64,000 nucleotides of DNA from an uncultured Roseobacter sp. (GTDB taxonomy: Bacteria > Pseudomonadota > Alphaproteobacteria > Rhodobacterales > Rhodobacteraceae): positions 310,001 to 374,000 of the forward strand of contig NZ_CANLQB010000005.1 in the NCBI RefSeq assembly GCF_947493125.1. The letters run 5' to 3'. Positions 2 to 17,987 of the stretch are shown one piece after another (the stretch's first letter is position 1; each line of letters opens with the position of its first letter). Both the position numbers and the translations under genes were made by a program. The notes under the pieces are model-generated. The model saw only the letters and a list, made by a program, of their open reading frames with translations, ran no database searches and was not told where the DNA came from.

Positions 2-1279
2 GATGATGCCAAGACGCGGGCCGCGGTTGAGGCGACGCTCGCCGACATCGAGGCGCGTGGCGATGCGGCCGTGCGGGAGCTCAGCGAAAAGTTCGACAAC
101 TACTCACCGGCCTCCTTCCGGCTCAGCGAGGAGGAGATCGACGACCTCATCGCCCAGCTTTCTCCGCGCGAACTCGAAGATATCAAATTCGCGCAGGAGC
201 AGGTGCAGAACTTCGCGCAGGCGCAACGGGATTCGATGCTGGATATCGAGGTGGAGACGATGCCCGGCGTGATCCTTGGGCACAAGAACATTCCCGTCCA
301 GTCCGTTGGGTGCTACGTGCCCGGCGGTAAGTTCCCCATGGTGGCCTCGGCGCATATGTCCGTGGCCACGGCGAGCGTCGCAAAGGTGCCGCGCATCATC
401 GCCTGCACCCCGCCGTTTCAGGGCAAGCCGAATGCCGGCGTGATCGCCGCGATGCACTTGGGCGGCGCGCATGAGATCTATGTGATGGGTGGTATTCAGG
501 CCGTGGGTGCGATGGCACTGGGGACGGAGACCATTGATCCGGTGCATATGATCGTGGGTCCGGGCAATGCCTTTGTGGCGGAGGCCAAACGGCAGCTTTT
601 CGGGCGCGTGGGGATTGATCTTTTCGCCGGTCCCACCGAGACGATGGTGATCGCCGACGAGACGGTCGATGCGGAAATGTGCGCGACGGACCTTCTGGGC
701 CAGGCCGAGCACGGGTACAACTCGCCCGCAGTACTGTTGACGAACTCGCGCAAGCTCGCGGAGGAAACGGTCTCCGAGATCGACCGCATCCTGCAAATCC
801 TGCCGACGGCAGAGACCGCGCGCGTGAGTTGGGAGGAGTATGGCGAGGTCATTCTCTGCGACAGCTACGACGAGATGCTGCAGGTCGCCGATGATGTAGC
901 CAGCGAGCATGTGCAGGTGATGACCGACCGCGACGACTGGTTCCTCGAGCATATGACCTGCTACGGCGCGCTGTTCCTTGGGCCCCGCACGAACGTGGCG
1001 AATGGCGACAAGGTGATCGGCACCAACCATACGCTGCCGACGAAGAAGGCGGGGCGCTATACGGGCGGGCTCTGGGTCGGCAAGTTCCTGAAAACCCACA
1101 GCTATCAGAAGGTGACCACGGATGCGGCGGCGGCGGAAATCGGCGCCTACGGCTCGCGTCTCTGCATGTTGGAGGGATTCGTGGGCCACGCCGAGCAATG
1201 CAACCTGCGGGTCCGTCGCTACGGTGGCATCAACGTGCCTTACGGTGAAGGCGCGCCGGCAACAGAGGCTGCGGAATGA
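2..1279 (+). CDS. Histidinol-dehydrogenase-family NAD-dependent dehydrogenase (5' end cut by window)
   Basis: The open frame runs to the left edge, so only a few N-terminal residues are missing from a protein of about 430 aa. The metal site of the HisD family is intact: GQAEHG (Gln and His ligands), ASEHVQ, GTNHTLP with its preceding Asp, and EGFVGHAEQ near the C-terminus. Family members oxidise an alcohol through an aldehyde to an acid with two NAD+. No other histidine biosynthesis gene is nearby and the following genes are catabolic, so a catabolic paralogue such as a sulfopropanediol 3-dehydrogenase (HpsN) type enzyme is more likely than true HisD. The substrate cannot be read from the sequence. 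Confidence 0.85.
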
Positions 1280-1286
1280 GCGGAGA

Positions 1287-1334
1287 GGCGGGGGCGCCGG
1301 GCGGGGCGCAAGCGCCCCGCCCGGCGCCCCCGCC
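1287..1334. repeat. Perfect 22-bp inverted repeat with CAAG loop
   Basis: Left arm 1287-1308, loop CAAG 1309-1312, right arm 1313-1334; the arms are perfectly complementary and almost pure G/C. It lies 7 bp after the stop of the HisD-like gene and before the SnoaL-like gene. There is no T tract, so a classical intrinsic terminator is unlikely, though it could stabilise or pause the transcript. A sister element with the same CAAG loop lies at 6793-6838 inside a reading frame. Confidence 0.85.
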
Positions 1335-1366
1335 GCCAGCCCTACACGGTTCAACCAGAAGACGCC

Positions 1367-2413
1367 ATGGATTTACACTCTGAACACAAAGACCTCATCG
1401 CCCCGCTGCGCGCGGCGATGTATGATCTTGATATCGCACGGGTTCGCGCGGTCTTGCACGACATCTGTACGCCGGATGTCACCTTTCGCCTCGCCTTTCC
1501 CTTCGAGACCACCACCGGCGTCGATGCTTATCTAGATGCGGCTTACGTACCGCTTGTCCAGGCTATCCCCGATCTGGAGCGCCGCGATCATATCGTGATG
1601 GCGGGGCCCACGCCGGATGGCGCAGATTGGGTCGGTTGCGGCGGTTTCTACACCGGAACCTTCCGCGCCCCCTGGCTCGACATCCCGCCGACCGGGCATC
1701 TGCTTCATATGCGGTTTCACGAGTTCTACCGCGTCGAGAACGGCAAGATCGTCGAGATGCAGGCGCTCTGGGACCTGCCGGAGGTCATGATGCAGTCAGG
1801 CGCCTGGCCGATGACCCCATCCCTGGGGCGGGAGTGGCACATTCCGGGCCCTGCCACCTGCGACGGTCTTGTGCCGGGCCCTCATGACGCTGCGCAGGGT
1901 GCGGCCACCTGCCAGCATATCATCGACATGCTGGCGCATCTCAAGCGCCACCCGGCGCAGGGCGGCCCCGAGGTCATGGAGATGCCCAGGTTCTGGCATC
2001 CGCGCATGACGTGGTACGGCCCCTCCGGCATCGGCACCGGGCGCGGCATCGAGGGCTTCCGCAAGTGGCACCAGATCCCCTTCCTCAACGGCATGCCCGA
2101 CCGCGGGCAGTACCTCGACGAGGTGGAGTATCACTTCTTCGGCGACCGCAACTATGCCGCCGTCACGGGCTGGCCCGACATGGTGCAATCGATCACCGAT
2201 GGCGGCTGGCTTGGCATCGCGCCCACGGGACAGAAGATCGAGATGCGCAGCCTTGACTTCTGGCGCGTGGAAAACGGCCTGATCCGCGAAAACTGGGTGA
2301 TGGTGGATCTTTTGCACATGTACGATCAGATCGGCGTCGATGTCTTCGCGCGCATGCGCGAGTTCAACAAAGCGCGGCAGGGCTTCGACCCCGAGACAGG
2401 TGTCGCCCTATGA
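1367..2413 (+). CDS. Two-domain SnoaL/NTF2-like protein
   Basis: 348 aa, about twice the length of a single SnoaL/NTF2-like domain. Each half ends in the strand pattern typical of this fold: FYRVENGKIVEMQALWD near residue 125 and FWRVENGLIRENWVMVD near residue 305. Members of this fold are small-molecule isomerases, cyclases, dehydratases or hydrolases with a cone-shaped pocket. No signal peptide is visible, so it should be cytoplasmic. The stop overlaps the next gene by 4 bp (ATGA), indicating translational coupling with the SDR. The start has only a weak ribosome binding site. The reaction is unknown; context suggests a step in the catabolic pathway. Confidence 0.75.
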   Translation: MDLHSEHKDLIAPLRAAMYDLDIARVRAVLHDICTPDVTFRLAFPFETTTGVDAYLDAAYVPLVQAIPDLERRDHIVMAGPTPDGADWVGCGGFYTGTFRAPWLDIPPTGHLLHMRFHEFYRVENGKIVEMQALWDLPEVMMQSGAWPMTPSLGREWHIPGPATCDGLVPGPHDAAQGAATCQHIIDMLAHLKRHPAQGGPEVMEMPRFWHPRMTWYGPSGIGTGRGIEGFRKWHQIPFLNGMPDRGQYLDEVEYHFFGDRNYAAVTGWPDMVQSITDGGWLGIAPTGQKIEMRSLDFWRVENGLIRENWVMVDLLHMYDQIGVDVFARMREFNKARQGFDPETGVAL

Positions 2414-3171
2414 GTGATCTGCCCCGCACGCCGTCCTTCGATCTGACGGGCAAACGCGCGCTCGTCACCGGCGCCTCCTCGGGCATTGGTCTGGGCTGTG
2501 CCGTGGCGCTGGCCGAGGCGGGTGCCCATGTGGTCTGTGCCGCCAGGCGGGCCGAGGTGCTGCAGGAGGCGGTCGATGCGATGGCAGCGCAGGGCTGGTC
2601 GGTGGAGGCGCTGCCGCTGGATCAGAGCGATGTGACAGCGCTGGCCGGGGCCTTCGAGCACCCCTTCGACATCGTGGTCAACTCCGCCGGTCTCGCGCGC
2701 CATGCTCCCGCCACCGAAACCACCCCCGAAGACTATGATGCAGTGATGGATCTCAACCTGCGCGGCGCCTACTTCCTTTCGGCTCATGCGGCCAAGACGT
2801 TGATAGAACACGGAAAATCCGGCTCCATCATCCATATCTCCAGCCAGATGGGCCATGTGGGCGGGGTCGACCGCGCTGTCTACTGCGCCTCGAAACACGG
2901 GCTCGAAGGGATGGTCAAGGCCATGGCCATCGAATGGGGCAAGGCAAACGTCCGCATCAACACCATCTGCCCCACCTTCATCCGTACGCCGCTGACGACG
3001 CAAACCTTCGACACCCCCGACCGTCTCGCCTGGATCATGGAAAAGATCAAGCTGCCCCGCGTCGGCGAGGTGGAGGACATCATGGGCGCCGTGCTGTTCC
3101 TCGCCTCCGACGCCTCGGCCATGGTCACCGGCACCTCTATGCTGATCGACGGCGGATGGACGGCAGGCTGA
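2410..3171 (+). CDS. Short-chain dehydrogenase/reductase (SDR)
   Basis: 253 aa, normal for a classical SDR. The cofactor motif TGASSGIG lies at residues 20-27, NSAG near 91-94, and the catalytic residues are Ser145 with Tyr158-x3-Lys162 (YCASK). It should be a soluble NAD(P)(H)-dependent alcohol/ketone oxidoreductase. The closing segment TGTSMLIDGGWTAG is typical. Its start overlaps the SnoaL-like gene by 4 bp and its stop overlaps the LacI start (TGATG), so the three are read as one unit. Substrate unknown; by context it handles a hydroxylated intermediate of the same pathway as the HisD-like dehydrogenase. Confidence 0.88.
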   Translation: MSDLPRTPSFDLTGKRALVTGASSGIGLGCAVALAEAGAHVVCAARRAEVLQEAVDAMAAQGWSVEALPLDQSDVTALAGAFEHPFDIVVNSAGLARHAPATETTPEDYDAVMDLNLRGAYFLSAHAAKTLIEHGKSGSIIHISSQMGHVGGVDRAVYCASKHGLEGMVKAMAIEWGKANVRINTICPTFIRTPLTTQTFDTPDRLAWIMEKIKLPRVGEVEDIMGAVLFLASDASAMVTGTSMLIDGGWTAG

Positions 3172-4187
3172 TGTCCAAGGTGACCTCTCTCGATGTGGCC
3201 GAAAAGGCCGGGGTCAGCCGCTCGGCGGTCAGCCGGGTGTTCACGCCCGGCGCCTCCGTCAGCAAGGGCACGGCGGAGAAGGTGCGCCGCGCCGCCGCCG
3301 CGCTTGGCTATCGCCCGAATGTGCTCGCGCGCTCGCTGATCACCGGGCGCAGCCGCATCATCGGCCTCGTCGTCGCCTATCTGGAAAACCAGTTCTACCC
3401 CGAAGCCATCGAGCGTCTGTCGAAGGCGCTGCAGGCCGAAGGCTACCACGTGCTGGTCTTCATGGCCTCGAACGACCACGCGGCCACGCAGACGGTCATC
3501 GACGAACTGCTCGACTACCAGGTGGACGCGATCATCGCCGCCTCCGTGGGCCTCTCGAATGATCTCACGCAACGCTGCGAGGGCCTGGGCATCCCGATCG
3601 TGCTCTTCAACCGGCACCAGTATGACGACCGGCTGACCTCCATCGCCTCGGACAATGAGGCGGGCGGGCGCAAGCTGGCCGAGTTCCTGATCGCAGGCGG
3701 GCACGAGCGCATCGCCCATATCGCCGGATGGGAAGGTGCATCGACCCAGATCGACCGCGAACGCGGCTTCCGCGCTGGTCTGGAGGCGGCGGGCATGGCG
3801 CTCTATGCAAGGGGCCTTGGCAATTTCGACTTCGAGACCGCGCAAGCCGCCGCGCGTGAGATGTTTGGCACGGACAACCAACCCGATGCCGTCTTTGTCG
3901 CCAACGACCACATGGCCTTTGCCGTGATGGACGTGCTGCGCTACGAGCTCGGGCTGCAGGTGCCGCAGGATGTCTCGGTTGTGGGCTATGACGATGTGAC
4001 CTTGTCGCATTGGCCGAGCTATGATCTGACCACCGTGCGCCAGCCTGCGGGGCGCATGGTCGCCGCTACGGTCGACGCCCTCCTGGCGCGGCTCAGCAAC
4101 GCCGACACCGCCCCGCGCCGCATCACGCTCGACGGCCCGCTCATCATCCGCGGCTCCGCCCGCACACCCGAAGGACCCACCCCATGA
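3171..4187 (+). CDS. LacI-family transcriptional regulator
   Basis: 338 aa. The N-terminal helix-turn-helix (SLDVAEKAGVSRSAVSRVF, about residues 6-24) and hinge (YRPNVLARSL) are followed by a periplasmic-binding-protein-like effector domain with IGLVV and DAVFVANDHMA. The ATG at 3171 is chosen because it overlaps the SDR stop (TGATG) and begins right before the HTH. Sitting inside the operon rather than divergent from it, it probably autoregulates the cluster. The ligand would be the pathway substrate or an intermediate; these regulators usually bind sugars or sugar-like compounds. The stop overlaps the next gene by 4 bp. Confidence 0.92.
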   Translation: MSKVTSLDVAEKAGVSRSAVSRVFTPGASVSKGTAEKVRRAAAALGYRPNVLARSLITGRSRIIGLVVAYLENQFYPEAIERLSKALQAEGYHVLVFMASNDHAATQTVIDELLDYQVDAIIAASVGLSNDLTQRCEGLGIPIVLFNRHQYDDRLTSIASDNEAGGRKLAEFLIAGGHERIAHIAGWEGASTQIDRERGFRAGLEAAGMALYARGLGNFDFETAQAAAREMFGTDNQPDAVFVANDHMAFAVMDVLRYELGLQVPQDVSVVGYDDVTLSHWPSYDLTTVRQPAGRMVAATVDALLARLSNADTAPRRITLDGPLIIRGSARTPEGPTP

Positions 4188-5158
4188 AAGGCTTCGATCC
4201 GAAGTTTCGCGATTTCCCCGATTACATCATCGGGATCACCAAGGAGATCTGGGAGGACCGCGGCATCGCGACCCTGCACCAGTATTACTCCGATGACATC
4301 GTCGTGCGCTCGCCCGCCTCGGTTGTGCTGGGCAACGCCAATGTGATCGGGGCGACGATGGCGACGCTCGCCGAGTTTCCCGACCGTACGCTCTTTGGTG
4401 AGGATGTGATCTGGTCCGGCACGCCGGAGGAGGGGATGCTTTCCTCGCACAGGCTGCTCAGCACCGCCACCCACGCGCATGATGGCGTCTATGGCACCGC
4501 GACGGGCAAGAAGCTGACCTACCGGATCCTCGCCGACTGTCACGCGATCAACAACCAGATCAACGACGAATGGCTGATCCGCGATCAGGGCGCCATCGTG
4601 CGCCAATTGGGTGTGGAGCCGAAAGCCTATGCCGCTGATCTGATCGCTGCGGAAGGTGGCCCCGAGGCCTGCGTGCCGCCGCTCACGCCTGCTACGGATC
4701 AGCCCGGACCGTATAAGGGCCGCGGCAATGACAATGAATGGGGTGCGAAATACGCGGACATCCTCAGCCGCATCATGGGCGCGGATATGGCGGCGATCCC
4801 GGCAGAATACGACCGGGCCTGTCACGTCGAGTACCCCGGCGGGATGACCGGTCACAGCCACGGCGACGTGGACCAGTTCTGGATGGGCCTGCGCGCGTCC
4901 TTCCCCGATGCCACCTTCCAGATCGACCACCAGATTGGCCGCGACGATCCGCTAATGCCGCCCCGCGCCGCGCTGCGCTGGTCGCTGCATGGGCGACACT
5001 CCGGCTGGGGCCGCTTTGGCGCGCCGACGGGGGCGGAGGTCTATTTACTCGGCATTAGCCACGCGGAATTCGGCCCTTGGGGTCTGCGCCGCGAATATGT
5101 CATCTTTGACGAAACCACGATCTGGAAACAGATTCTGCTGCAGACCGGAGAGCTCTGA
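4184..5158 (+). CDS. Second two-domain SnoaL/NTF2-like protein
   Basis: 324 aa with two SnoaL-like halves, the first about residues 10-145 and the second about 180-320 (RASFPDATFQIDHQIG). It is clearly diverged from the protein at 1367-2413 but of the same architecture. No signal peptide. It is coupled to the LacI gene by ATGA. A SnoaL-like enzyme on each side of an SDR/regulator pair suggests two related isomerase, dehydratase or hydrolase steps, or a heteromeric enzyme; neither can be decided from sequence. A 138-bp gap without a convincing gene follows. Confidence 0.72.
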   Translation: MKGFDPKFRDFPDYIIGITKEIWEDRGIATLHQYYSDDIVVRSPASVVLGNANVIGATMATLAEFPDRTLFGEDVIWSGTPEEGMLSSHRLLSTATHAHDGVYGTATGKKLTYRILADCHAINNQINDEWLIRDQGAIVRQLGVEPKAYAADLIAAEGGPEACVPPLTPATDQPGPYKGRGNDNEWGAKYADILSRIMGADMAAIPAEYDRACHVEYPGGMTGHSHGDVDQFWMGLRASFPDATFQIDHQIGRDDPLMPPRAALRWSLHGRHSGWGRFGAPTGAEVYLLGISHAEFGPWGLRREYVIFDETTIWKQILLQTGEL

Positions 5159-5296
5159 TGCCCCTTGCACTGGGCGAACCTCTACGACGGTACCACATCT
5201 GGCGGGCGTCCCTGCGCGCGCGCCGTCTGAACCTGCGTCCGCCGGGGCAGGGGTGATCACGCACCTCATGCCCCACGTCAGACAAGGACCAGACCT

Positions 5297-6262
5297 ATGA
5301 CCCCCCAAGAGATGGAAACCCGCATCGTCCGCTACGGCGACCTGATGCCCTGCAAAACCGCCTTTATCGACGCCCACACGCCGGGATCGGACCAGAAGGA
5401 AAACTTCACGATCATCGGCGGCGGCGTCTCGGAAAGCCCCGACCAGCACGTGCATATCTCGATCCCGCACGGCTTCAACATCGGTGCTGCGGGCCAGCCT
5501 CCCAAATGCCGCAACTCCCTGCACAGCCACCGCACGGCGGAGGTCTTCTTCGTGCTCAAGGGCCGCTGGCGCTTCTTCTGGGGCCGCTGGGGCGACGCGG
5601 GCGAGGTGGTGCTGGAGGAGGGCGACATCTTCAACATCCCCACCGGTATCTTTCGCGGGTTTGAGAACATCGGCCATGACTACGGGATGATCATGGCGAT
5701 CCTCGGCGGGGACGACGCGGGCGGCGGCGTGATCTGGGCGCCGCAGGTGATCGAGGACGCGGCGGATCACGGGCTGGTGCTCTCCGAGAAGGGCAAGCTC
5801 TATGACACCAAGAAAGGTGAGGCCCTGCCCGAGGGCGTGAAGCCCATGCCGCTGCTCACCGAGGAGGAGTTGCGCGCCTTCCCAGAGCCCACCACGGCAG
5901 AGGTCATCCCCGGCTATGTGGCGCGCTACTGGGATATGGTGGCGCTGGCCGACCGCACGCCCGCCAAGGTGATCGGCGCGGACGCGATGCTGCGTGACAA
6001 ACCGGGCTTCGAGGTGGCGCTGCTCACCCGCGGCTCGGCCACCGATGCGATGCACAGCCATGACAAACCCTCGGTCCTGATGCCCGTCACCGGCCACTGG
6101 CGCGTCACCTGGGACGGCGGCAGCACCACGCTCGCACCGGGGGACACCATGTCCGTGCCCGAACAGCTGATGCACAGCGCCGTGCCCTCGATGACCGGCG
6201 CGGCCGCGCTCTATCACATCGTCGGCACCGACGATCCCGCGGGCCCCACGTGGGTCGCCTGA
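5297..6262 (+). CDS. Bicupin protein (possible metal-dependent dioxygenase or isomerase)
   Basis: 321 aa with two cupin barrels. The first carries a metal-binding set H76-x-H78-x3-E82 (SLHSHRTAE) followed by GDIFNIPTG; the second has AMHSHDKPS and, about 60 residues on, MHSAVP, so both barrels keep putative metal ligands. Bicupins include gentisate-type ring-cleavage dioxygenases and sugar-acid isomerases. A good ribosome binding site (AAGGA, 8 bp before ATG) supports this start. It overlaps the next gene by 13 bp. Whether it cleaves a ring is inference from the neighbouring PcaB/PcaD-like enzymes on the other strand. Confidence 0.75.
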   Translation: MTPQEMETRIVRYGDLMPCKTAFIDAHTPGSDQKENFTIIGGGVSESPDQHVHISIPHGFNIGAAGQPPKCRNSLHSHRTAEVFFVLKGRWRFFWGRWGDAGEVVLEEGDIFNIPTGIFRGFENIGHDYGMIMAILGGDDAGGGVIWAPQVIEDAADHGLVLSEKGKLYDTKKGEALPEGVKPMPLLTEEELRAFPEPTTAEVIPGYVARYWDMVALADRTPAKVIGADAMLRDKPGFEVALLTRGSATDAMHSHDKPSVLMPVTGHWRVTWDGGSTTLAPGDTMSVPEQLMHSAVPSMTGAAALYHIVGTDDPAGPTWVA

Positions 6263-7266
6263 TCGCAGCCCTCCTGATCTGGCTGCTGCCGCTCTCGGCA
6301 GCGGCCCAACAGGTCTGGACCCCCGGCAGTTACGACAACGGCGATTTCTTCTTCGGCACCGCCACACTCCCCGACTTCTCCGTCGCCCTTTCCTGTGGCG
6401 AGCGCTCCCCCATGCGCCCCGACTGGCGCGGCCCGCAGGATATGCACGCCACTGTGACTGCGCCCGGCGTGATCCAGATGCGCTTCTCCAAACAGGTGCT
6501 GGGCCCCCCGCGCGATGAGCTCGGCACCGAGACCCGCGATGTGAAAATCCTGGCCGGCGGTGTGACCTATCAGCTGCCGCCTGTCGGCTTCAACTATTTC
6601 GACGATGCCTGGACCGTGCCCCTGTCTGCCGCCGATCCATTCTTCGCGGCCCTCGGGCAAGCCAACGGGTTCCAGGTCGACAGCCTGCTGGGTCGGGTGA
6701 ACATCCCGACCACCGGGCTGCACAGCGCCTGGATCCAGCTGATCGCCTTCTGCGAAAGCAAATTCCGTGACATCGGTTTGGGCTGGGCGCCAAGCCCGCC
6801 GGGGGCTGCGGGGCAAGCCCCGCAGCCCCCGGCGGGCTCCCTGGCTGCACCGCCTGCGCCACAACCTGCAAACGACGCGATGGTGGAGGTCGCCTACACC
6901 CATGTCGCCCAGGTCTGTGGGCGCCAGCCCGTCACGCTCGGCCCTGGCCACCTGCTCATCGGCAACATCGACGGCGACGGGCGCAACGACGTGGTGATCT
7001 GGTGGGACGCCATCGACTGCGGCCCGCCTCTTTCCCGCCCGGTCTGCGGCGCCTCACAATGCCTCGTCGAGACTTTCCTAACCGCCGCCTGGACCGGCAC
7101 GCCCGAGCCGTTCTACGCCGCCTCGGCTGCAATCGTCCGCGGCTCCAACGGGCTCGACCTGCTGCAGACCACCGGGCGCCTTGCGGTCTGCAACGATCCC
7201 GCCGCCCCGCCTGACTGCACCTTTTACCACGGCTGGTTCAATGGCAGCTTCCAGCGGCTGAACTGA
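6250..7266 (+). CDS. Secreted hypothetical protein with a palindrome-derived linker
   Basis: 338 aa starting at GTG, giving an N-terminal signal peptide (RLIAALLIWLLPLSAAAQ) and export to the periplasm or outside. The middle and C-terminal parts are not recognised, except NIDGDGRNDVVIW, which resembles a calcium-binding FG-GAP/VCBS-type turn. Between them is a Pro/Ala/Gly-rich linker (PPGAAGQAPQPPAG) that is exactly the translation of the perfect palindrome at 6793-6838. A secreted protein is out of place among cytosolic catabolic enzymes; an extracellular binding or sensing role is possible but unsupported. Confidence 0.7.
   Translation: MGRLIAALLIWLLPLSAAAQQVWTPGSYDNGDFFFGTATLPDFSVALSCGERSPMRPDWRGPQDMHATVTAPGVIQMRFSKQVLGPPRDELGTETRDVKILAGGVTYQLPPVGFNYFDDAWTVPLSAADPFFAALGQANGFQVDSLLGRVNIPTTGLHSAWIQLIAFCESKFRDIGLGWAPSPPGAAGQAPQPPAGSLAAPPAPQPANDAMVEVAYTHVAQVCGRQPVTLGPGHLLIGNIDGDGRNDVVIWWDAIDCGPPLSRPVCGASQCLVETFLTAAWTGTPEPFYAASAAIVRGSNGLDLLQTTGRLAVCNDPAAPPDCTFYHGWFNGSFQRLN
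6793..6838. repeat. Perfect 21-bp inverted repeat with CAAG loop inside a coding sequence
   Basis: Left arm 6793-6813, loop CAAG 6814-6817, right arm 6818-6838, no mismatches. It is read through in frame by the secreted-protein gene and encodes a low-complexity linker. The same design (21-22 bp arms, CAAG loop) occurs at 1287-1334, so this is a copy of a dispersed palindromic element rather than chance. Confidence 0.85.
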
Positions 7267-9570: not shown

Positions 9571-9595
9571 CAATAAAACAAGGGCGCTTCGCCCC
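9571..9595 (-). terminator. Intrinsic terminator of the minus-strand catabolic operon
   Basis: Read on the minus strand, a 5-bp GGGCG/CGCCC stem with an AAG loop (9582-9594) is followed by the T-rich tail TTGTTTTATT. It lies about 60 bp past the stop of the enolase-superfamily gene, the last gene of the minus operon. Confidence 0.6.
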
Positions 9596-9653
9596 TCGGT
9601 GCCTCCCCGGCATTTTGCCGTTGCGCGTACGCTGCGGTCAGGGTTTGGCAAGC

Positions 9654-10886
9654 TCAGTCCTTCGGCGCCGGTGCGCCCCCCTCAAAGGCGTTGCCCTGAA
9701 CGTAGTCGCAGGGGGGCTCCTGCATCTCCAGATGCAACCCATCGCCGGTGTAGGGGTGGGCGCGGGCGAGCTCTTCATCCACCTCGATGCCAAGGCCGGG
9801 TGTTTCGGGCGGTGTGATGAACCCCTCTTCGACGCGGAGGCTTGAGCGGATCAGCGCGTCGTGGAACGGGGTTTCGATGGTCTCCGCCATCAGCAGGTTC
9901 GGGATGCAGGCCGCCAGTTGGATATTGGCGGCCCACTCGATGGGGCCTGCGTAGAGATGCGGCGCCATCTGCGCATTGTAAGCCTCTGCCATCGCTGCAA
10001 TTTTCCGGCATTCCCAGATCCCGCCGGCGCGGCCCAGAGCGGGTTGCAGGATGGTCGCGGCCCCACTCCGCAGCACCGGCGCGAACTCCGCCCGCGTGGT
10101 CAGCCGCTCGCCGGTCGCCACAGGGATACGCACGGCGCGCGCGACCTTGGCCATCTCCTCGACCGCATCGGGGGGGATGGGCTCTTCGAACCAGAGCGGG
10201 TCGTAGGGTTCCAACGCGCGGCCCAGCCGGATCGCACCTGCCGTGCTGAATTGCCCGTGTGTGCCAAAGAGCAGATCGGCGCGGTTGCTCACCGCTTCGC
10301 GGATCGCCTTACAGAAGGCCACGGATTGCGCGATGTCGCGCATTCCAGGCATGTGGCCGCCGCGCATGGTGTAAGGGCCCGCGGGGTCAAACTTGACCGC
10401 CGTATAACCTCTTGAAATACAATCACTTGCGGCTTCAGCGGCCATGACTGGCGCAGTCCAGAAAGCGGTCATGTCGTGATGCGGGAGCGGGTAGAGATAG
10501 GTGTAGGCGCGGATGCGGTCGTTCATCTTGCCGCCGAGCAGCGCCCAGACCGGTCGGCCCCGCGCTTTGCCCAGGATATCCCAGCAGGCGATCTCCAACC
10601 CCGAGAACGCGCCCATCACCGTGAGGTCCGGGCGCTGGGTGAACCCTGAGGAATAGGCGCGACGAAACATCTTTTCGATGTTCTCCGGGCTTTCACCTTC
10701 CATGTGGCGCTGAAACACATCCGCGATCACGGCGCGCATGGCGTCCGGCCCGACGGAGGCGGCATAGCATTCACCCCAACCGGTGATTCCGTCATCGGTG
10801 GTGAGCTTCACGAGGATCCAATAGCGCCCGCCCCAGCCGGGTGCGGGCGGGGCGGTGATGATGATGTCCAGGTCCTTGAGTTTCAT
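9654..10886 (-). CDS. Mandelate racemase/muconate lactonizing enzyme family (enolase superfamily) protein
   Basis: 410 aa. The capping domain (about residues 1-120, GITGWGE) is followed by the barrel with AVKFDPAG, the ligand Glu in WFEEPIPPD, ATGERL and the C-terminal PHLYAGPIEW, an arrangement like sugar-acid dehydratases of the galactonate dehydratase type. At the end of barrel strand 3 the usual Asp-x-His appears as Gly-x-His (LLFGTHGQF), so one expected magnesium ligand is missing while the His is kept. Soluble; probably a dehydratase or racemase of a hydroxy acid. It is the last gene of the minus operon, with a terminator downstream. Substrate unknown. Confidence 0.85.
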   Translation of the reverse strand: MKLKDLDIIITAPPAPGWGGRYWILVKLTTDDGITGWGECYAASVGPDAMRAVIADVFQRHMEGESPENIEKMFRRAYSSGFTQRPDLTVMGAFSGLEIACWDILGKARGRPVWALLGGKMNDRIRAYTYLYPLPHHDMTAFWTAPVMAAEAASDCISRGYTAVKFDPAGPYTMRGGHMPGMRDIAQSVAFCKAIREAVSNRADLLFGTHGQFSTAGAIRLGRALEPYDPLWFEEPIPPDAVEEMAKVARAVRIPVATGERLTTRAEFAPVLRSGAATILQPALGRAGGIWECRKIAAMAEAYNAQMAPHLYAGPIEWAANIQLAACIPNLLMAETIETPFHDALIRSSLRVEEGFITPPETPGLGIEVDEELARAHPYTGDGLHLEMQEPPCDYVQGNAFEGGAPAPKD

Positions 10887-10922: not shown

Positions 10923-10929
10923 GTACCTG

Positions 10930-12030
10930 TCAGTTGCTCGGCGTCTCGAAGACAATCACATTGCGCCGCGCGGAGCCGGATTTGGTATCCGCGATGGCCT
11001 CGTTGATCTGATCCAGCCGCCAGCGGCCCGAGATCAGCTCGTCCAGTTTCAGCCGCCCCTGTGCATAGAGATCGACCATCCAGGGGATGTCGCGCTGGAT
11101 CACCACATCGCCCATCTTGGAGCCCACCATGCCCTGGCCGACAGCGGCGAAGATCACCGGCTCATAGGTGGAGGTGGCACCGGAATGCGGCATGCCGACC
11201 ATGACGACCTTGCCGCCGTAGCCGAGATAGCGCGGCGCCTGGTCATAGGCGGGGATGGCGCCAACGGTCACGATGACCGCATCGGCGCCACGCCCGCCGA
11301 GCGCTTTGAAGCTGGCTTTCCATGGTGCGGGGTCGGTCGCCAGAACGCCATGGGTCGCGCCGAATTCCTTTGCTATTTCAAGCTTTTCGGCACTCATGTC
11401 CACCGCCACGATGCGGCGGGCGCCGGCGATCCGCGCACCCTGAATGGCGTTCAGGCCAACACCACCAGCGCCGATCACGACCACATCCTGCCCGGCACGT
11501 AGCCCCGCTGCATTGACCGCCGCGCCAACGCCCGTGATCACGCCACACGCGATGAGGCTGGCGGCGTCCTTCGGGATGGTCGCGTCAATCCGCACCACCT
11601 GGCTTTGGGCCACCACCACCTTCTCGGCGAAGGCGCCGCAGGCCATTGCCTGATGCAGCTTGGTGCCCTGCGTGGTCGTAATGGGGCCGCTGTCGCCGTC
11701 ATATGGCGTCTGGCACAGGGTGGGCTGGCCACCCGCGCAGTTGCCGCAGGTGCCACAGGCCCGGATCAGCGTCACGATCACGCTGTCGCCGACAGCCAGC
11801 CCCGCCACACCGGGCCCGACGGCACTCACCACGCCTGCGGCTTCATGCCCGTAAACTGCGGGCAGCGACCCGCCCCAGGCGCCTTCGGCATAGGAGATGT
11901 CAGAGTGACAGATGGCGACCGCGCTCAAGGTGACTTCGATCTCGCCCATCTCCGGTGCGCGCAGACGGATGTCTTCGATCCGGAGCGGAGCGCCGAACGC
12001 GTGGCATACGGCGGCTTTGATGGTCTGCAT
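10930..12030 (-). CDS. Zinc-dependent alcohol dehydrogenase
   Basis: 366 aa from the ATG at 12030, chosen because the family N-terminus (TIKAAVCHAFGAPL) begins there; a longer frame upstream has no family character. Catalytic zinc ligands are Cys in AICHSD, His in YGHEAAG and Cys in IACGVITG; structural zinc ligands are the four Cys of CGTCGNCAGGQPTLC. The NAD site is GAGGVG. This is the medium-chain, class III-like type. It sits between an MFS transporter and an enolase-superfamily enzyme in the minus operon and would oxidise an alcohol intermediate or reduce an aldehyde. Confidence 0.9.
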   Translation of the reverse strand: MQTIKAAVCHAFGAPLRIEDIRLRAPEMGEIEVTLSAVAICHSDISYAEGAWGGSLPAVYGHEAAGVVSAVGPGVAGLAVGDSVIVTLIRACGTCGNCAGGQPTLCQTPYDGDSGPITTTQGTKLHQAMACGAFAEKVVVAQSQVVRIDATIPKDAASLIACGVITGVGAAVNAAGLRAGQDVVVIGAGGVGLNAIQGARIAGARRIVAVDMSAEKLEIAKEFGATHGVLATDPAPWKASFKALGGRGADAVIVTVGAIPAYDQAPRYLGYGGKVVMVGMPHSGATSTYEPVIFAAVGQGMVGSKMGDVVIQRDIPWMVDLYAQGRLKLDELISGRWRLDQINEAIADTKSGSARRNVIVFETPSN

Positions 12031-12122
12031 GGGGCGGTGTCTTTCTGATCGGCGACGTTCCGGGCAGGGTGCCTGCATTGGCTGATGATGCGCAAGGCAC
12101 AAACCGACATGAAATGTCGCCG

Positions 12123-13340
12123 TTAGCGGATGTCGCTTGCCGTTGATCGGCGCGCGGGGGCCCGGAGAAAGACGGCCAGCCCGATGAGGATCAGCCCGGC
12201 CGACAGCAGGAAGGGCGCCCCGGGGAAATAGGCCGGAGCGTCGGCATCCGTGAAGGCTGCGAAGGTGCCTGTCATCATCAGCGGCGAGATGATCATGGCC
12301 AGCGCCATGATCGACGTGAGCGCGCCCTGAAGCTCGCCCTGCGCATCACGACCGACAGCCTTCGACATGATGCCTTGCAGCGCCGGAGTGATCACGGCGG
12401 CCAGGGCAGCGAGCGGTGTCAGGATCAGCGCAATGGTGCCGCTGGTGACCAAGGCGAGCGCAAGAAACGCCGCCGTATCAAAGAGATGGCCGTATATGAC
12501 CGTGCCGCGCTCTCCCAGAAGGCGCAGCACTGGGCGGATCAACCCGCCCTGCACCACGGCCATCATGATGCCGAACAGCGCCAGGCTCAGGCCAATGGTC
12601 GCGGGTTCCCAACCAAAGCGTTCCTTGACGAAATAGGACCAGATGGCGGGGTAGACCATGAAAGCAACCTGGTAGAGGAAGAAGACAACCAGCAGCGGTC
12701 CGATGCCCGGCAGACGCCCCAGCTGACGGAAGCTGCCCCAGGGGTTCGCGCGGGCCCATTGGAAGGGGCGGCGGATCTCATCGGTGATGGTTTCCTTCAG
12801 GACAATATAGCCAAAAAGGGCATTCAGTGCGGCGAGCCCTGCCGCGGCATAGAACGGCGCACGGGTGCCGAACGCGCCCAGCAAACCGCCCAGCAGCGGA
12901 CCCAGCACGAAGCCCAGGCCGAACGCGGCGCCCACGAGGCCGAAATTGGCGGCGCGATCTTCGGGCTTCGAGATATCGGCCATATAGGCATTGGCGGTCG
13001 ACTGAGTTGCGGCGGTCATCCCGCCCACGATCCGACCGATGAGCAGCAACACGATACTGCCTGCGACGGCCATCACGAGATAGTCCAGTGCCATCACGAC
13101 CAATGAGATGAGCAGGACGGGCCGTCTGCCGAAGCGATCCGAGAGCCCGCCGATCACCGGCCCGCACAGGAACTGCATCACGGCGAAGGCGGTCGACAGC
13201 ACCCCTCCCCAGAGCGCGGCAGTGCTGAGATCCGCGCCGCGCACCTCCTGGATCAGATCCGGCATGACCGGGATGATCAGCCCGATCCCCATGGAATCGA
13301 GCATGACCGTGATCAGGATGAAGAGGACGGCGGGGCGCAC
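12123..13340 (-). CDS. MFS transporter, TetA-like
   Basis: 405 aa with about twelve hydrophobic segments. Motif [15 protein letters not shown], lies after the second segment, and the tetracycline-resistance-type pattern is clear ([21 protein letters not shown] at the N-terminus). It starts at GTG, 3 bp after the PcaB-like stop. As the only transporter in the catabolic block it may import the substrate or export an intermediate; TetA-type carriers are usually proton-coupled exporters. Inner membrane. A drug-efflux role unrelated to the pathway is possible. Confidence 0.88.
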
Positions 13341-13343
13341 CGT

Positions 13344-14663
13344 TCAGAGCGCCCGCACCCGGGCGGCAAAGGCGCGCGCCTCCTCCGGGGCCTGGCCAAG
13401 CTGGGCGCGCGGGTCGAAGAGATCGGACGGCAACTCGGGGTGCTGCGACAGAGCAATCTCGGCAAGCGATGTGCCCGTTTCCGCCGCTTGCCGACACAGC
13501 GCCTTCGCCGTCCTCTGCGCCTCCGCCCGCGGCATCTGCGCCGCGAGGGCGAAGCTCAGCGCTTCCGCGTGCGCAAGGCCCTGACCGAGGGTGTCCGCCA
13601 TGCGGGCGGGTACGGGCTGCAGACCCTCCAGCACTGCGCAGGCTTTCTGCAAAGAGGCCGCGGTCGTGAGCGCTATCTGCGGCATCACCATCCATTCAGT
13701 GAACCAGGCCGCCCCGTCGCGCTGGTGCTGGTGTACTGCCGCTGCTTGCAGCCCGCTCATCAGTCCACCCATCTGGTGGGACAGGGCCACCAGCACCGAT
13801 GGCCCCACCGGGTTCTGCTTGTTGGGCATGGTGGAGGAGGCTCCGGAGGCGCCCAGCGTGACCTCGGCGACCTCCGTTGCGGCCAGCGCGATCAGGCTCT
13901 GGCCCATGGCTGCGAGCGCCGCAGTGACCTCTGCCATCCAGGACGAGATGCGCAGCACTGGTCCGCGATCGGTGTGCCAACTGCGGCCCGGATCCCGCAA
14001 TCCGAGCCCCTCGGCCAACGCCGCGCGGAGGGCGGGAGCCTGATCGCCCAGGGCCGCGCTGGTGCCAGCCGCACCGGAAAGCGACACCCACAGGCTGCGA
14101 CCGCGCAGATCGTCAAGTGCCGCGAGGGCATCAAGAAGCGGCGCGCCCCAGCTCGCGAGCACGGCGCCCCAGGTTGTTGGCGTCGCCTGCTGAGCATAGG
14201 TGCGCCCGGCCATGGGGACGTCGGCATGGGTGCCCGCCTGCTCGGCGAGAGCCGCAAGCACCGCCCTCAGATCGCTCTCCGCCAGCGCCAGACACTGCCG
14301 CAGTCGCAGCATCAGGCCCGTGTCGATGATGTCCTGCGAGGTCGCGCCCCAATGCATGTATTGCGCATGTTCGGGTGCGTTCATCTCGGCGCGAAACGCG
14401 GCAAGCAAGCCGGGCACGCTGACGCCGTTCTCGCCGGTGGAGGAGGCCAGCGCGCCCGGGTCGATCTGGATCTCCAGCGTCGCGCGATGGATGGCCGCCG
14501 CACTGATCTCGGGGATGATCCCGAGCGCACCTTGAGCCTTGGCAAGCGCACCTTCCACCAGCAGCATCGCACGCAGCGCGGCACTGTCCGAGAACAGACG
14601 CCCGGCCTCGCCCGTCGGGAAGAGCTGCGCGTGAAGCGGGCTGTCGAAGACGCTGGCGGCCAC
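13344..14663 (-). CDS. pcaB: 3-carboxy-cis,cis-muconate cycloisomerase-like lyase
   Basis: 439 aa, fumarase/aspartase superfamily. The signature loop GASSTMPNKQNPVGPS carries the catalytic serine, with GATSQDI upstream. PcaB isomerises 3-carboxymuconate to its lactone in the protocatechuate pathway. It is directly upstream of the MFS gene and 13 bp from a PcaD-like gene, so a lactone-forming and lactone-opening pair is likely. Protocatechuate dioxygenase genes and pcaC are absent from the window, so the substrate may differ from that of classical PcaB. Soluble tetramer by family. Confidence 0.82.
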   Translation of the reverse strand: MAASVFDSPLHAQLFPTGEAGRLFSDSAALRAMLLVEGALAKAQGALGIIPEISAAAIHRATLEIQIDPGALASSTGENGVSVPGLLAAFRAEMNAPEHAQYMHWGATSQDIIDTGLMLRLRQCLALAESDLRAVLAALAEQAGTHADVPMAGRTYAQQATPTTWGAVLASWGAPLLDALAALDDLRGRSLWVSLSGAAGTSAALGDQAPALRAALAEGLGLRDPGRSWHTDRGPVLRISSWMAEVTAALAAMGQSLIALAATEVAEVTLGASGASSTMPNKQNPVGPSVLVALSHQMGGLMSGLQAAAVHQHQRDGAAWFTEWMVMPQIALTTAASLQKACAVLEGLQPVPARMADTLGQGLAHAEALSFALAAQMPRAEAQRTAKALCRQAAETGTSLAEIALSQHPELPSDLFDPRAQLGQAPEEARAFAARVRAL

Positions 14664-14676
14664 GGATCAGGGCGCC

Positions 14677-15465
14677 CTAGACATGGCCGGTGTCGCGCAG
14701 AAATCGCGTCAGCAGCGCGGCATACTCCTGCGGCTGCTCGACGCAAGGCAGGTGACCCGCCTTGCGGATCACGTGGCACTGGCTGCCGGGGATCAGATCG
14801 GTCGTCTCGCGCACCAGATCGGGCGGCGTGGAGCCATCCTCGGCCCCCGCAATGCCCAGCGTGGGCAGGCGCAAACTGGCGGTAGTGGTGTAAAAGTCGG
14901 TGCCCGAAATCGCAGCGGAGCACCCCATGTAGCCCTGATCCTCCTGGCGCGTCAGCATATTGCGCCAGAGCTCGAGGTCGGGCGTCGCGCGGAAGTCGTC
15001 CGAGAACCAGCGCTCCATCACCGCATCGGCCAGCGCCTCGATGCCGCCTTGCCGCACCGTCTCGATGCGCTCGCTCCACATCTCGGGCGTGCCGATCTTG
15101 GCGGCGGTGTTCGAAAGCACCATCGCGCGGATCAAGTCCAGCCGTTTGACGGCAAGCCCCTGGGCGATCATCCCGCCGATGGACAGGCCAACAAAGACGC
15201 AGCCCTGCACGTCAAGGTGATCCAGCAGCGCTTCGGTGTCGGTGATCAGCGCACCCATCGTGTAGGGGGTGGGCGGGCAGGTCGACAGCCCGTGCCCGCG
15301 CTTGTCAAACTGGATCAGGCGCAGGCCTTCGGGCAGGAGCGGCAGGATCGGATCCCACAGCCGCATATCTGTGCCGAGCGAGTTGGCGAAAACGACCGGC
15401 GGGCCGTCCTCTGGCCCGTCCACCCGGTAGTGCAGCCGCAGATCGCCGAGATCGAGCATCTTCAT
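14677..15465 (-). CDS. pcaD: 3-oxoadipate enol-lactonase-like alpha/beta hydrolase
   Basis: 262 aa. Nucleophile elbow GLSIGG with Ser95, an acid in AGAEDGSTPPD and the catalytic His in KAGHLPCVEQP; the N-terminal strand pattern and NSLGTDMRLWD are typical of PcaD. PcaD hydrolyses 3-oxoadipate enol-lactone to 3-oxoadipate. It overlaps the PLP-enzyme gene by 4 bp and precedes the PcaB-like gene. The pairing supports lactone chemistry, though other lactones or esters cannot be excluded. Confidence 0.83.
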   Translation of the reverse strand: MKMLDLGDLRLHYRVDGPEDGPPVVFANSLGTDMRLWDPILPLLPEGLRLIQFDKRGHGLSTCPPTPYTMGALITDTEALLDHLDVQGCVFVGLSIGGMIAQGLAVKRLDLIRAMVLSNTAAKIGTPEMWSERIETVRQGGIEALADAVMERWFSDDFRATPDLELWRNMLTRQEDQGYMGCSAAISGTDFYTTTASLRLPTLGIAGAEDGSTPPDLVRETTDLIPGSQCHVIRKAGHLPCVEQPQEYAALLTRFLRDTGHV

Positions 15466-16466
15466 GCGGCATTTCCTTGTGTGCGGGGCGCTGTGGCGGG
15501 CAGGGCGAGGGCCTTGGCAAAGACATCCGCGTCGATATTCCCTCCCGAAATCGTGACGATCACATCGTCGCCCTCAATCTGGGCGCCGTGAAAAACGGCG
15601 GCGGCCAGCGCCACAGCGCCGCCCGGTTCGGCCACCAGCTTCAACCGGTTGAAGGCCAGGGCGACGGCCCGCAGCGCCTCTTCTTCGCTGACGGCAAAGC
15701 CAGGCCCGGCCAGTCGTTTGAGGATCGGGAAGGTCAGCACGCCCGGCTCCGGTGTCACGATCGCATCGCAGAGGCTGCCCGAAAGCCGCGTGTTGCGTTG
15801 GACCGTTCCCGCCTGCAGGGAGCGTGCCACATCATCGAAGTCCTCCGGTTCGGCCGTGCGCACGCGCAGACCAGGTGCCTCCGCCTCCAACGCCAGCGCG
15901 ATGCCGGAGGAGAACCCACCACCGCCGCAGCACACAATCACATCCGCCTGCGTGACACCGACCGCTGCGGCCTGAGCGGCAATCTCCAGACCGGTGGTGC
16001 CTTGCCCGGCGATCACCTGCGGCTCGTCATAGGGCTTGATCAGCGTGAGCCCCCGTGCCGCGACCATCTCTGCGCCGATGGCGTCCCGGTCCTCACCGGC
16101 CGCGCGGTCATAGAGTACGACCTCTGCGCCCAAAGCCCGCGTGTTGTCGATTTTCACTGCGGGCGCGTCGCGGGGCATGATGATCACCGCTGCAGCGCCA
16201 TGCGCCCGCGCGGCCAGTGCCACGCCCTGCGCATGGTTGCCGCTGGAAAAGGCGATGACGCCGCGGCCGCGCTCGGCCTGTGACAGCGCCGAGACCGCCG
16301 ACCAGGCGCCGCGGAACTTGAAGCTGCCGGTGTGCTGCAGGCATTCTGCCTTGATCCACACCCGGCGCCCGGCGATCTCGTCGAGAAACGGTGAGGAGAG
16401 CAGCGGCGTCCGACGCGCATGGCCATCCAGTCGTGCTGCAGCGGCTCTGATCATCTCGATGTTCAT
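15462..16466 (-). CDS. Threonine/serine dehydratase-family PLP enzyme
   Basis: 334 aa, fold type II PLP enzyme without the C-terminal ACT regulatory domain of biosynthetic IlvA. The PLP lysine lies in GSFKFRGAW (about residue 50), the Asn loop in SSGNHAQG and the phosphate loop in CCGGGGFSSG. Catabolic relatives deaminate threonine, serine or 3-hydroxyaspartate to oxo acids, or act as racemases. It overlaps the PcaD-like gene by 4 bp. Its place in the operon suggests that the pathway contains a nitrogen-bearing hydroxy amino acid, or that the enzyme has a related dehydration role. Confidence 0.85.
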   Translation of the reverse strand: MNIEMIRAAAARLDGHARRTPLLSSPFLDEIAGRRVWIKAECLQHTGSFKFRGAWSAVSALSQAERGRGVIAFSSGNHAQGVALAARAHGAAAVIIMPRDAPAVKIDNTRALGAEVVLYDRAAGEDRDAIGAEMVAARGLTLIKPYDEPQVIAGQGTTGLEIAAQAAAVGVTQADVIVCCGGGGFSSGIALALEAEAPGLRVRTAEPEDFDDVARSLQAGTVQRNTRLSGSLCDAIVTPEPGVLTFPILKRLAGPGFAVSEEEALRAVALAFNRLKLVAEPGGAVALAAAVFHGAQIEGDDVIVTISGGNIDADVFAKALALPATAPRTQGNAA

Positions 16467-16476
16467 AGGCGCCGTC

Positions 16477-17301
16477 TCACTTCAGGATCTCGATCCAGGT
16501 CTGCAGCGCGGCCACCGCCTCGGGCTCGTCGAGAAACGGAATGTGGCCCCGCCCGTGGACTGTGACGGCGATCATATCAGGCCGACGCCGCTGCATCTCC
16601 GCCAGCGTATCGCGGCTCAGCAGGTTCGATGCTTCGCCGCGGATGCAGGCCAGCGGGAGGTCTTCCAGCGCGTCGAAATAGGGCCAAAGGTCCGGGGCGG
16701 CCTGGGCGCCCACCGCCTCGACCGCATCGCGCAGCCGCGGGTCATAGGTGATCTGCAGACCCTTCGTAGTCTGCTCGAAGTGCTTCTCGGCTTCCTCCAT
16801 CCAACGCGAAAAGGGGACATCCGTGAAGCCTGTATAGGTTGTCTCCATCGCGCGGGCGGCATCGACCAGCGTCTTGGCGGCGGGCGCGCGCCCCAGATAT
16901 CCGGAGATGAACGCAAGCCCCTCGGGTTCTATCACCGGACCGATGTCATTCAACGCGACGCCCAGAAGGCGCGCCTTGGCGCCCATCGCAAGACCCATGG
17001 CGTTCAGCCCGCCACGCGACGTGCCAATGACGGCGACCTGGTCCAATTCAAGATGGTCCAGCAACTCGATCACATCCCGGCATTCCACCGGCAGTGCATA
17101 GTTCTTCCAGTCGGTGTCCCAGTCGGACTTTCCGCGCCCGCGGTAGTCCATCTTGATCAGCCGAACGCCGTTCAGATGTGGTGTGACATAGTCGAAGTCG
17201 CGCGTGGTCCGCGTCAGCCCGGCGAGGCACAGCACGGGCAGCCCGCCTCCCTCGTCCGTATAGTAGAGCGACAGCTTGTCGGAGGTGCGAAAAAAGCTCA
17301 T
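16477..17301 (-). CDS. Alpha/beta hydrolase
   Basis: 274 aa. Nucleophile elbow GTSRGG (about residue 98), oxyanion region LAGLTRTTRD and a C-terminal catalytic His in HGRGHIPFLDEPE. No signal peptide. It overlaps the dehalogenase gene by 4 bp and precedes the PLP-enzyme gene by 10 bp, so it is the second gene of the minus operon. Paired with a haloacid dehalogenase and a second hydrolase (PcaD-like), it probably hydrolyses an ester, lactone or C-C bond of an intermediate. Substrate unknown. Confidence 0.85.
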   Translation of the reverse strand: MSFFRTSDKLSLYYTDEGGGLPVLCLAGLTRTTRDFDYVTPHLNGVRLIKMDYRGRGKSDWDTDWKNYALPVECRDVIELLDHLELDQVAVIGTSRGGLNAMGLAMGAKARLLGVALNDIGPVIEPEGLAFISGYLGRAPAAKTLVDAARAMETTYTGFTDVPFSRWMEEAEKHFEQTTKGLQITYDPRLRDAVEAVGAQAAPDLWPYFDALEDLPLACIRGEASNLLSRDTLAEMQRRRPDMIAVTVHGRGHIPFLDEPEAVAALQTWIEILK

Positions 17302-17987
17302 GTCACGTCCGCCAGACCGGGTATGCCCGTCAGATCCGGCAGCACATTTGCGGGTTGGCCGGGCAGGCGGTCCACTGGATCAGCGCCGCGGTTCACCCAA
17401 ACGGTGGCAAACCCGTAGCGGGCCGCGCATGCCGCGTCCCAACCGTTGGACGAGACGAAGAGGATCTCGTCGGTGTTACAACCGAACCGTTTGGCCACCA
17501 GATCGTAGACCCGCGCGTCGGGCTTGAAGACGCCGACGCTTTCGACTGACAGCGTGTCATCCAGCAGCGCTTCGATACCGGCGGAGCTGACCGCGCCCTC
17601 CAGCATGTCGGGGGAGCCGTTGGACAGGATTGCCGTGCTCAGACCACCCTCCTTGAGCGCGCGCAGCATCTCGGGCACCTCCGGATAGCTCTGCAGCTGC
17701 CAATAGAGCGCCAGCAGCCGCTCGCGCAGCGCCGGGTCGCCATCAAGCCCGGTCTTCTCCAGCGCCCAATCGAGGCCGTCCTGCGTGACCTGCCAGAAAT
17801 CGCAGTGATCATCCGTGACTGCGCGCAGCCAGGTGTATTGCAACTGTTTCAGGCGCCAATGCTCCGCCAGGGCCGACCAGGTGCCCTGCAATTGCCTGAA
17901 ATCGGGCTCGGTCGCAGCCTGCCGCGCCGCCGCGGCCACATCGAACAGCGTGCCATACGCGTCAAAGACACAGGTCGTGATCGGCAT
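17298..17987 (-). CDS. Haloacid dehalogenase, type II (HAD superfamily)
   Basis: 229 aa from the ATG at 17987, supported by AGAGG upstream. HAD motif I FDAYGTLFD gives the nucleophile Asp8; motif II is LSNGSPDML, the motif III Lys lies in VFKPDARVY, and FVSSNGWDAACA is diagnostic for L-2-haloacid dehalogenases. These enzymes hydrolyse 2-haloacids to 2-hydroxy acids; close relatives act on phosphates. First gene of the minus operon, downstream of a palindromic operator-like site at 18012-18026. Confidence 0.86.
   Translation of the reverse strand: MPITTCVFDAYGTLFDVAAAARQAATEPDFRQLQGTWSALAEHWRLKQLQYTWLRAVTDDHCDFWQVTQDGLDWALEKTGLDGDPALRERLLALYWQLQSYPEVPEMLRALKEGGLSTAILSNGSPDMLEGAVSSAGIEALLDDTLSVESVGVFKPDARVYDLVAKRFGCNTDEILFVSSNGWDAACAARYGFATVWVNRGADPVDRLPGQPANVLPDLTGIPGLADVT

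Follow-up and report, generated by a model that had tools for sequence, protein, structure and literature searches.

Which compound do the genes at the start of a 64,000-nucleotide stretch of DNA from an uncultured Roseobacter sp. (contig C5, NZ_CANLQB010000005.1, positions 310001-374000, in a 4.83 Mb genome) act upon, and do they serve one pathway or two? Within this stretch, hereafter the window, the genes analysed lie at positions 1-17987 and form two convergent, tightly packed runs with start/stop overlaps, block 1 (positions 1-9199, plus strand) and block 2 (positions 9654-17987, minus strand). All 17 open reading frames are present approximately where an initial annotation, made from the sequence alone, had placed them, and the two convergent blocks with dense start/stop overlaps that it described are confirmed. 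The family names it assigned were upheld by profile searches, except that a carrier role for the major facilitator superfamily (MFS) protein is doubtful and one gene has no Pfam match. Block 1 proved to be a real set of accessory catabolic genes, widespread and inherited independently of block 2, the adjacency of the two in the window being coincidental. With a probability of about one half, block 1 would mediate the import and breakdown of a carbohydrate- or polyol-like, possibly methylated compound through the full series of steps given below.

Extent, conservation and proposed chemistry of block 1

Block 1 represents the 3′ part of a locus of ~15.7 kb (C5 303480-319199), the first gene of which is divergent. 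Upstream of the gene for a HisD-like zinc dehydrogenase are a single SnoaL-fold protein, two ATP-binding cassette (ABC) permeases, an extracellular solute-binding protein, a MalK-type ATPase and, at the far end, the divergent double SnoaL gene; the full locus thus encodes four SnoaL-type proteins (one single, three double) and a CUT1-type ABC importer. Among solved structures, the solute-binding protein (L002 14716-15975) matches one at E ≤ 1e-10, the sugar ABC protein 5iai (59 bits, 4e-15).

Conservation was assessed in 80 loci retrieved by searching with the MetE-like protein of block 1, the best 80 of at least 579 candidates, a set biased to close relatives in which several loci are cut by contig ends; the four nearest relatives (91-94% identity) are titled Roseobacter. 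The same-strand order HisD, short-chain dehydrogenase/reductase (SDR), LacI, bicupin, MetE is found in 66 of these loci, from Rhodobacterales and their kin, and the other 14 (L008, L017, L035, L039, L040, L046, L051, L055, L059, L067, L070, L077, L078 and L079) are missing at least one of the first four genes. On the MetE strand, the second double SnoaL gene is present in 73 loci, SDR, LacI and bicupin in 72 each, HisD in 70, the first double SnoaL gene in 68, RraA in 60, an alpha/beta hydrolase and the single SnoaL gene in 56 each, and an S-adenosylmethionine (SAM) methyltransferase in 23. The loci extend ~10 kb, which lowers the counts for the importer (permease 2, 55; permease 1, 50). The alpha/beta hydrolase lies directly after MetE in 55 of the 80 loci and is absent from this position in the window.

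Of 149 sampled genomes from the family, 51 have a MetE-like match (threshold E 1e-60) and 65 a HisD-like match (E 1e-190); at this frequency, the target compound is probably a common one in the habitats of these bacteria. Both genes occur in 50 of the 51 MetE genomes, within 12 kb of each other in 42 (Fisher p ~7e-25, relatedness of the genomes not corrected for). The co-functioning gene set that the initial annotation envisaged therefore holds for block 1 alone, given its fixed order and this co-occurrence; scattering of homologues among relatives, which had been named as telling against such a set, was found for the two blocks as a pair and not for block 1. Complete or near-complete copies are also plasmid-borne in Octadecabacter, Marinovum, Ruegeria and Paracoccus, the Paracoccus copy being without MetE. 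Among plasmid records, 84 have a MetE match, of which 12 regions were read; 27 have SnoaL and 222 HisD matches, of which seven regions were read, one of them unannotated. In one comparison set of 84 loci, four come from hand-chosen plasmids, and 15 of 20 further regions were picked because the genome has a HisD but no MetE match. No description of the block-1 operon was found in open-licence PubMed Central (PMC) papers by gene-family names or by roseobacter SnoaL operons, although annotation wording varies and a description elsewhere is possible.

The chemistry proposed for block 1 draws on enzyme families and on swaps in gene neighbourhoods. The ABC importer would bring in the carbohydrate- or polyol-like compound, which the SnoaL-fold proteins may dehydrate, isomerise or hydrolyse. 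The HisD-like zinc enzyme would take a terminal CH2OH that neighbours a zinc-chelating OH or NH2 to the carboxylate in a four-electron oxidation, and the SDR would oxidise a secondary alcohol. The bicupin, together with the alpha/beta hydrolase in most relatives, would rearrange or open the product, from which the RraA-type enzyme would free a pyruvate-like unit. Homocysteine would receive, through the MetE-like protein, a methyl group that comes from the substrate or from an intermediate, and the ligand of the LacI regulator is presumably the compound itself or a product formed early in the pathway. The regulator, the solute-binding protein and the HisD-like enzyme of distinct class provide assayable handles on the compound.

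Reduced sets fit an oxidation followed by aldol cleavage. HisD and SDR genes occur with a tripartite ATP-independent periplasmic (TRAP) transporter and RraA in L137 and L158 (in L158 an HpcH-type gene lies further on), and with an HpcH-type aldolase in L136 and L153; such replacement between aldolase types suggests an aldol cleavage as the terminal step. Other HisD loci, for example L146, L149 and L151, have neither aldolase type nearby. The RraA-type protein scores 62.3 bits against the RraA-like Pfam cut-off of 24.5, and its WGE and GVMRD segments are conserved in 60 rows; the pattern WGE...GxxRD is what we take to be the segment of RraA-type aldolases (HMG/CHA aldolase). An aldolase of this type as the last step, put forward in the initial annotation, is still plausible; the ligK/PcmE score (21) lies under the cut-off of 304.5.

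A structure model of the double SnoaL protein (15 sequences; predicted local distance difference test score, pLDDT, 82) shows two NTF2-like domains. Its closest full-length matches are MonBI/MonBII and Lsd19, tandem epoxide hydrolases with which it shares two such domains per chain (Foldseek E from 3e-11) and from which it differs in the arrangement of the domains (template modelling score, TM, ~0.3 over the whole chain) and in sequence (13-15% identity); single-domain matches are better and are to polyketide cyclases. A further double SnoaL gene lies elsewhere in the same genome (G000 C4:276408-277334), among regulatory-looking genes, with no HisD or importer gene noticed beside it. In the bicupin, H76, H78 and E82 are invariant, and the likewise invariant R120 stands where the usual third histidine is expected; its model is weak (pLDDT 74), with quercetin dioxygenase YxaG and oxalate decarboxylase nearest at the fold level.

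The slot before MetE is constant in position, but the gene that fills it changes quickly. The protein encoded there in the window (6250-7266) gave no Pfam match in the profile scan and has a signal-peptide-like start, as judged by eye; weak relatives (24-28% identity) are found just before MetE in five loci (L017, L022, L037, L039 and L113), and the SAM methyltransferase takes this slot in 23 of the 80. Loci L039, L040 and L077 have a minimal set of SDR, MetE and alpha/beta hydrolase without HisD, LacI or bicupin; the slot holds the protein of no assigned family in L039 and a SAM methyltransferase in L040.

The MetE-like protein and proposed methyl transfer

The zinc ligands H641, C643, E665 and C726 and the homocysteine residues S433, E484 and D599 (numbered on a Rhodococcus MetE) are retained in all 91 MetE-like sequences, which range from Rhodobacterales to haloarchaea. 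These are the four zinc ligands and three homocysteine contacts listed by Price et al. in the available part of their paper (PMC7857596), and their retention supports homocysteine as the putative methyl acceptor. The core methionine synthases MesA-MesD treated there likewise lack the folate-binding half, consisting of the catalytic MetE domain, and keep the zinc-binding H, C, E and C and the homocysteine-binding S, E and D. Unlike them, the MetE-like gene of the window sits in a catabolic operon, in which no match to DUF1852 was found among the scanned proteins, and its product falls far below the curated cut-offs: six curated methionine-synthase models match, all below cut-off (best, 85.8 versus 406), and the solved MesD 3rpd gives 26.4 bits.

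The kept zinc and homocysteine residues are also compatible with a core methionine synthase of the usual sort, carried along in the operon of a pathway that transfers no methyl group. Such an explanation would account for gene sets without MetE and for MetE without the gene set, and it agrees with the proposal of the authors of a Phaeobacter inhibens study, in the available text of PMC12366255, that the probable orthologue there is a candidate second methionine synthase. It is nevertheless somewhat unlikely, in view of the very strong operon linkage in Rhodobacterales, the scores far below the methionine-synthase cut-offs and the situation in the archaeon Halobellus limi, where the MetE-like gene lies behind five ester cyclase genes.

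The P. inhibens gene concerned is PGA1_c27430 (‘Mes-like’), proposed by those authors as the possible second methionine synthase to explain residual growth of a bmt mutant without methionine (PMC12366255). Its identity as an orthologue of the MetE-like gene is probable on primer mapping: three of the six published primers fit the Phaeobacter italicus locus L071, in the bicupin gene, just behind MetE and in RraA (4/21, 2/19 and 2/20 mismatches, respectively), and the other three do not fit this locus (6-8 mismatches). For six neighbouring P. inhibens locus tags, the open-licence PMC literature gave only this one paper. Dimethylsulfoniopropionate (DMSP) was considered as the methyl source and is not favoured, since the available text reports that DMSP still shortened the lag phase when PGA1_c27430 was deleted (PMC12366255).

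That retained DMSP response is one of several observations that weigh against the chemistry proposed for block 1. SnoaL and cupin folds serve many reactions, so the steps assigned to these proteins are guesses. Sets complete apart from MetE occur in Paracoccus alcaliphilus and in L142, L150 and L154, the last three from genomes chosen for having no MetE, which indicates that methyl transfer is not required by every version of the pathway. Conversely, MetE is present without the gene set in L039, L040, L070 and L077, and in other phyla it has other neighbours; two of three haloarchaeal regions have no SnoaL-type neighbours of MetE, Halobellus being the one that does.

A hint of methylated substrates, drawn from single cases, is provided by the sarcosine oxidase and SBP56 neighbours of SnoaL sets and by the ester cyclases beside the haloarchaeal MetE-like gene. 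Vibrio pelagius and Phaeobacter piscinae have SnoaL sets with an ABC importer and without HisD. In V. pelagius, double SnoaL genes and the importer lie on a plasmid (L138 12817-21984) next to purU and the genes for a sarcosine oxidase of four subunits, and a methionine synthase gene paired with DUF1852 follows further on. An SBP56 protein adjoins SnoaL/ABC sets both in P. piscinae (L140) and in Marinovum (L084), where DMSP genes are next door, and is presumably of the methanethiol-oxidase type.

A more specific and rather doubtful proposal is that block 1 stands for a marine pathway not described so far, which would degrade a methylated sugar- or polyol-like metabolite and use a folate-free MetE-like enzyme to hand the methyl group straight to homocysteine. 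Such a pathway would bring together a third functional class of the HisD family (GKFPM) and a new catabolic use of tandem SnoaL proteins, with SnoaL-MetE kin as far away as a haloarchaeon. The operon also offers a testable answer to the question of where some folate-free MetE-type enzymes obtain their methyl groups.

The HisD-like enzyme

The closest solved relatives of the HisD-like enzyme are the HpsN structures 8v35 and 8wwe (344-361 bits). HpsN, the (R)-2,3-dihydroxypropane-1-sulfonate (DHPS) 3-dehydrogenase, is marked by GRY(A/S)H, His126 recognising the sulfonate and Lys353 contacting it, and the corresponding HisD motif is G-S-A-P-L (available text of PMC11382572). The zinc and catalytic residues of HpsN (Gln248, His251, Asp352 and His411; Glu318 and His319) are kept in 75 of 75 aligned rows, drawn from the MetE loci and the window together with the genome's own HisD and HpsN, and are common to HisD as well; Lys353 is kept in 74, the exception being the genome's own HisD. 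Where HpsN has its GRY(A/S)H mark, however, the window protein has GKFPM, as do 72 of the 75 rows, the rest being the genome's own HisD (GLASY), its own HpsN (GRYSH) and one 45% paralogue (GRYPL). With the own HisD and HpsN excluded, the position of His126 is Met in 72 of 73 rows and Leu in the paralogue. In 24 further loci GKFPM recurs in 23 orthologues, and L156 (75% identical) has GNYPL, also without the histidine.

The gene is not the hisD of histidine biosynthesis, for which another gene on C3 is the better match to the hisD model (527.6 bits, versus 431.5 for the window protein; 37% identity between them); the generic hisD cut-off of 243.8 is exceeded by all three genes, including the genome's own HpsN. 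Nor does a DHPS operon fit well. That block 1 might be a sulfonate operon of the DHPS type with a variant HpsN is suggested by the closeness of HpsN and by the retained Lys353, but it is improbable given the replacement of His126 by Met, the HpsN encoded elsewhere in the genome, on C11 (GRYSH; 45% identity to the window protein; 732.6 bits to 8wwe) and the lack of a sulfolactate lyase gene in the annotated plasmid copies that were read. We infer that the HisD-like enzyme would represent a third class, predicted to yield a carboxylate by oxidising a terminal CH2OH that adjoins a zinc-chelating group. This class assignment rests on the motif and not on the HisD tree, in which 4 of 15 inner branches are starred and two outgroup branches are very long, and the HisD motif provides no clean test, as the genome's own HisD aligns as GLASY rather than G-S-A-P-L.

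Block 2, the pca genes and the relation between the blocks

Block 2 is an ordinary, widespread chromosomal region linked to fabI/FKBP that carries pcaD and pcaB of the beta-ketoadipate pathway. Its enolase-superfamily protein, nearest to D-gluconate/D-galactonate dehydratases though below their cut-offs, has matches (E 1e-100) in 109 of the 149 genomes, or in 92 when matches of <70% identity are left out. In 17 block-2 loci hand-picked from enolase matches of 78-85% identity, none beside block 1 and one cut by a contig end, the enolase is accompanied by alcohol dehydrogenase (ADH) in 17, PcaD in 16, MFS and alpha/beta hydrolase in 15 each, the haloacid dehalogenase (HAD) family protein in 14, the pyridoxal phosphate (PLP) enzyme in 13 and PcaB in 10; FabI or FKBP is within reach of the enolase in 14. 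The coordinates of the features of both blocks are collected in Table 1.

Table 1. Genes and other features at window positions 1-17987
Feature	Window position	Strand	Evidence
HisD-like zinc dehydrogenase, GKFPM class	1..1279 (start 50 bases before window)	+	Pfam Histidinol_dh, 446 bits
Double SnoaL-fold protein 1	1367..2413	+	two SnoaL stretches
SDR oxidoreductase, predicted partner of HisD-like enzyme	2410..3171	+	profile match; SDR adjoins HisD in several reduced sets too
LacI-family regulator within operon	3171..4187	+	profile match; 72/80 loci
Double SnoaL-fold protein 2	4184..5158	+	profile match; 73/80 loci
Bicupin	5297..6262	+	cupin profile match; invariant H76, H78, E82, R120
Protein of no assigned family, signal-peptide-like start	6250..7266	+	slot before MetE
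MetE-like (core methionine synthase-like) protein	7380..8507	+	Meth_synt_2
RraA-type aldolase/decarboxylase-like protein	8504..9199	+	RraA-like, 62.3 bits
Terminator-like hairpin, positioned to end block 2	9579..9598	-	consensus scan
Enolase-superfamily (sugar-acid dehydratase-like) protein, block 2	9654..10886	-	MR_MLE
Zn alcohol dehydrogenase, block 2	10930..12030	-	Zn-ADH profile
MFS protein, block 2	12123..13340	-	nearest Tet(A/B/C) efflux family, below cut-off
PcaB-like 3-carboxymuconate cycloisomerase, block 2	13344..14663	-	Lyase_1; 305.5 bits, cut-off 355.75
PcaD 3-oxoadipate enol-lactonase, block 2	14677..15465	-	329.9 bits, cut-off 255.85
PLP threonine/3-hydroxyaspartate ammonia-lyase-like protein, block 2	15462..16466	-	PALP; below curated cut-offs
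Alpha/beta hydrolase, block 2	16477..17301	-	profile match
HAD type II (haloacid dehalogenase family), block 2	17298..17987	-	TIGR01428, 195.3 bits, cut-off 125.4

The single pathway across both blocks proposed in the initial annotation found no support. Both markers occur in 45 of the 149 genomes and lie within 15 kb of each other in three of the 45 and apart in 42, and block 2 keeps its own order in the 17 hand-picked genomes without block 1. It is thus highly improbable that block 2 completes the breakdown of a lactone or ring-cleavage intermediate formed by block 1: adjacency is seen in 9 of the 80 MetE loci (Roseobacter, Sulfitobacter and one Rhodobacteraceae metagenome-assembled genome) as well as in the three genomes of the family sample, and the enolase is enriched in MetE genomes (45/51 versus 64/98 of the others, p 0.003, or 0.08 with stricter orthologues), but block 2 is found in most of the sampled family genomes, and PcaD and PcaB have a known job, with pcaH/pcaG-type genes elsewhere in the genome. 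All nine adjacent loci (L003-L007, L012, L022, L037 and L062) are also without the alpha/beta hydrolase after MetE, compared with 15 of the 71 others (p 6e-6), although the genomes are related and the absence probably reflects one ancestral loss. Ring-cleavage chemistry, which the same annotation had considered, holds for block 2 through pcaB and pcaD, and setting block 2 apart keeps the pca genes from misleading the search for the substrate. The MFS protein had been taken for a carrier; its family is confirmed, but it is nearest to the Tet(A/B/C) efflux family, below that cut-off (333.1 versus 475), and is therefore not obviously an uptake carrier.

The PcaD protein of block 2 passes its equivalog cut-off, and the genome has no second good PcaD, the next best place being 36% identical over 110 amino acids. 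The PcaB-like protein is below its equivalog cut-off, which may be too strict for it, since a genetically proven roseobacter PcaB is 36% identical to that of Pseudomonas putida (available text of PMC12442348). Two Dioxygenase_C genes (pcaH/pcaG type) lie on C4. In L108, pcaD, homologues of three C4 genes (pcaC, pcaH and pcaG type), pcaB, ADH and enolase are found together in that order, and with the C4 dioxygenase genes this arrangement suggests that the pca set of the genome is split, pcaD and pcaB being the part in the window. A pcaB locus separate from the pca cluster also occurs in Roseovarius nubinhibens, where it was confirmed by base editing according to the same text (PMC12442348). This likeness to roseobacter beta-ketoadipate genes covers block 2 alone, and in the window pcaD lies with pcaB, away from pcaC-H-G.

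On C4 (L121 4613-7490; G000 C4:336612-339489), pcaC-, pcaH- and pcaG-looking genes stand behind an IS30-type transposase, the pcaC and transposase genes being read by eye. Between the two blocks, a consensus scan gave two overlapping minus-strand sites where 0.7 were expected, which mark a predicted terminator, no function being implied.

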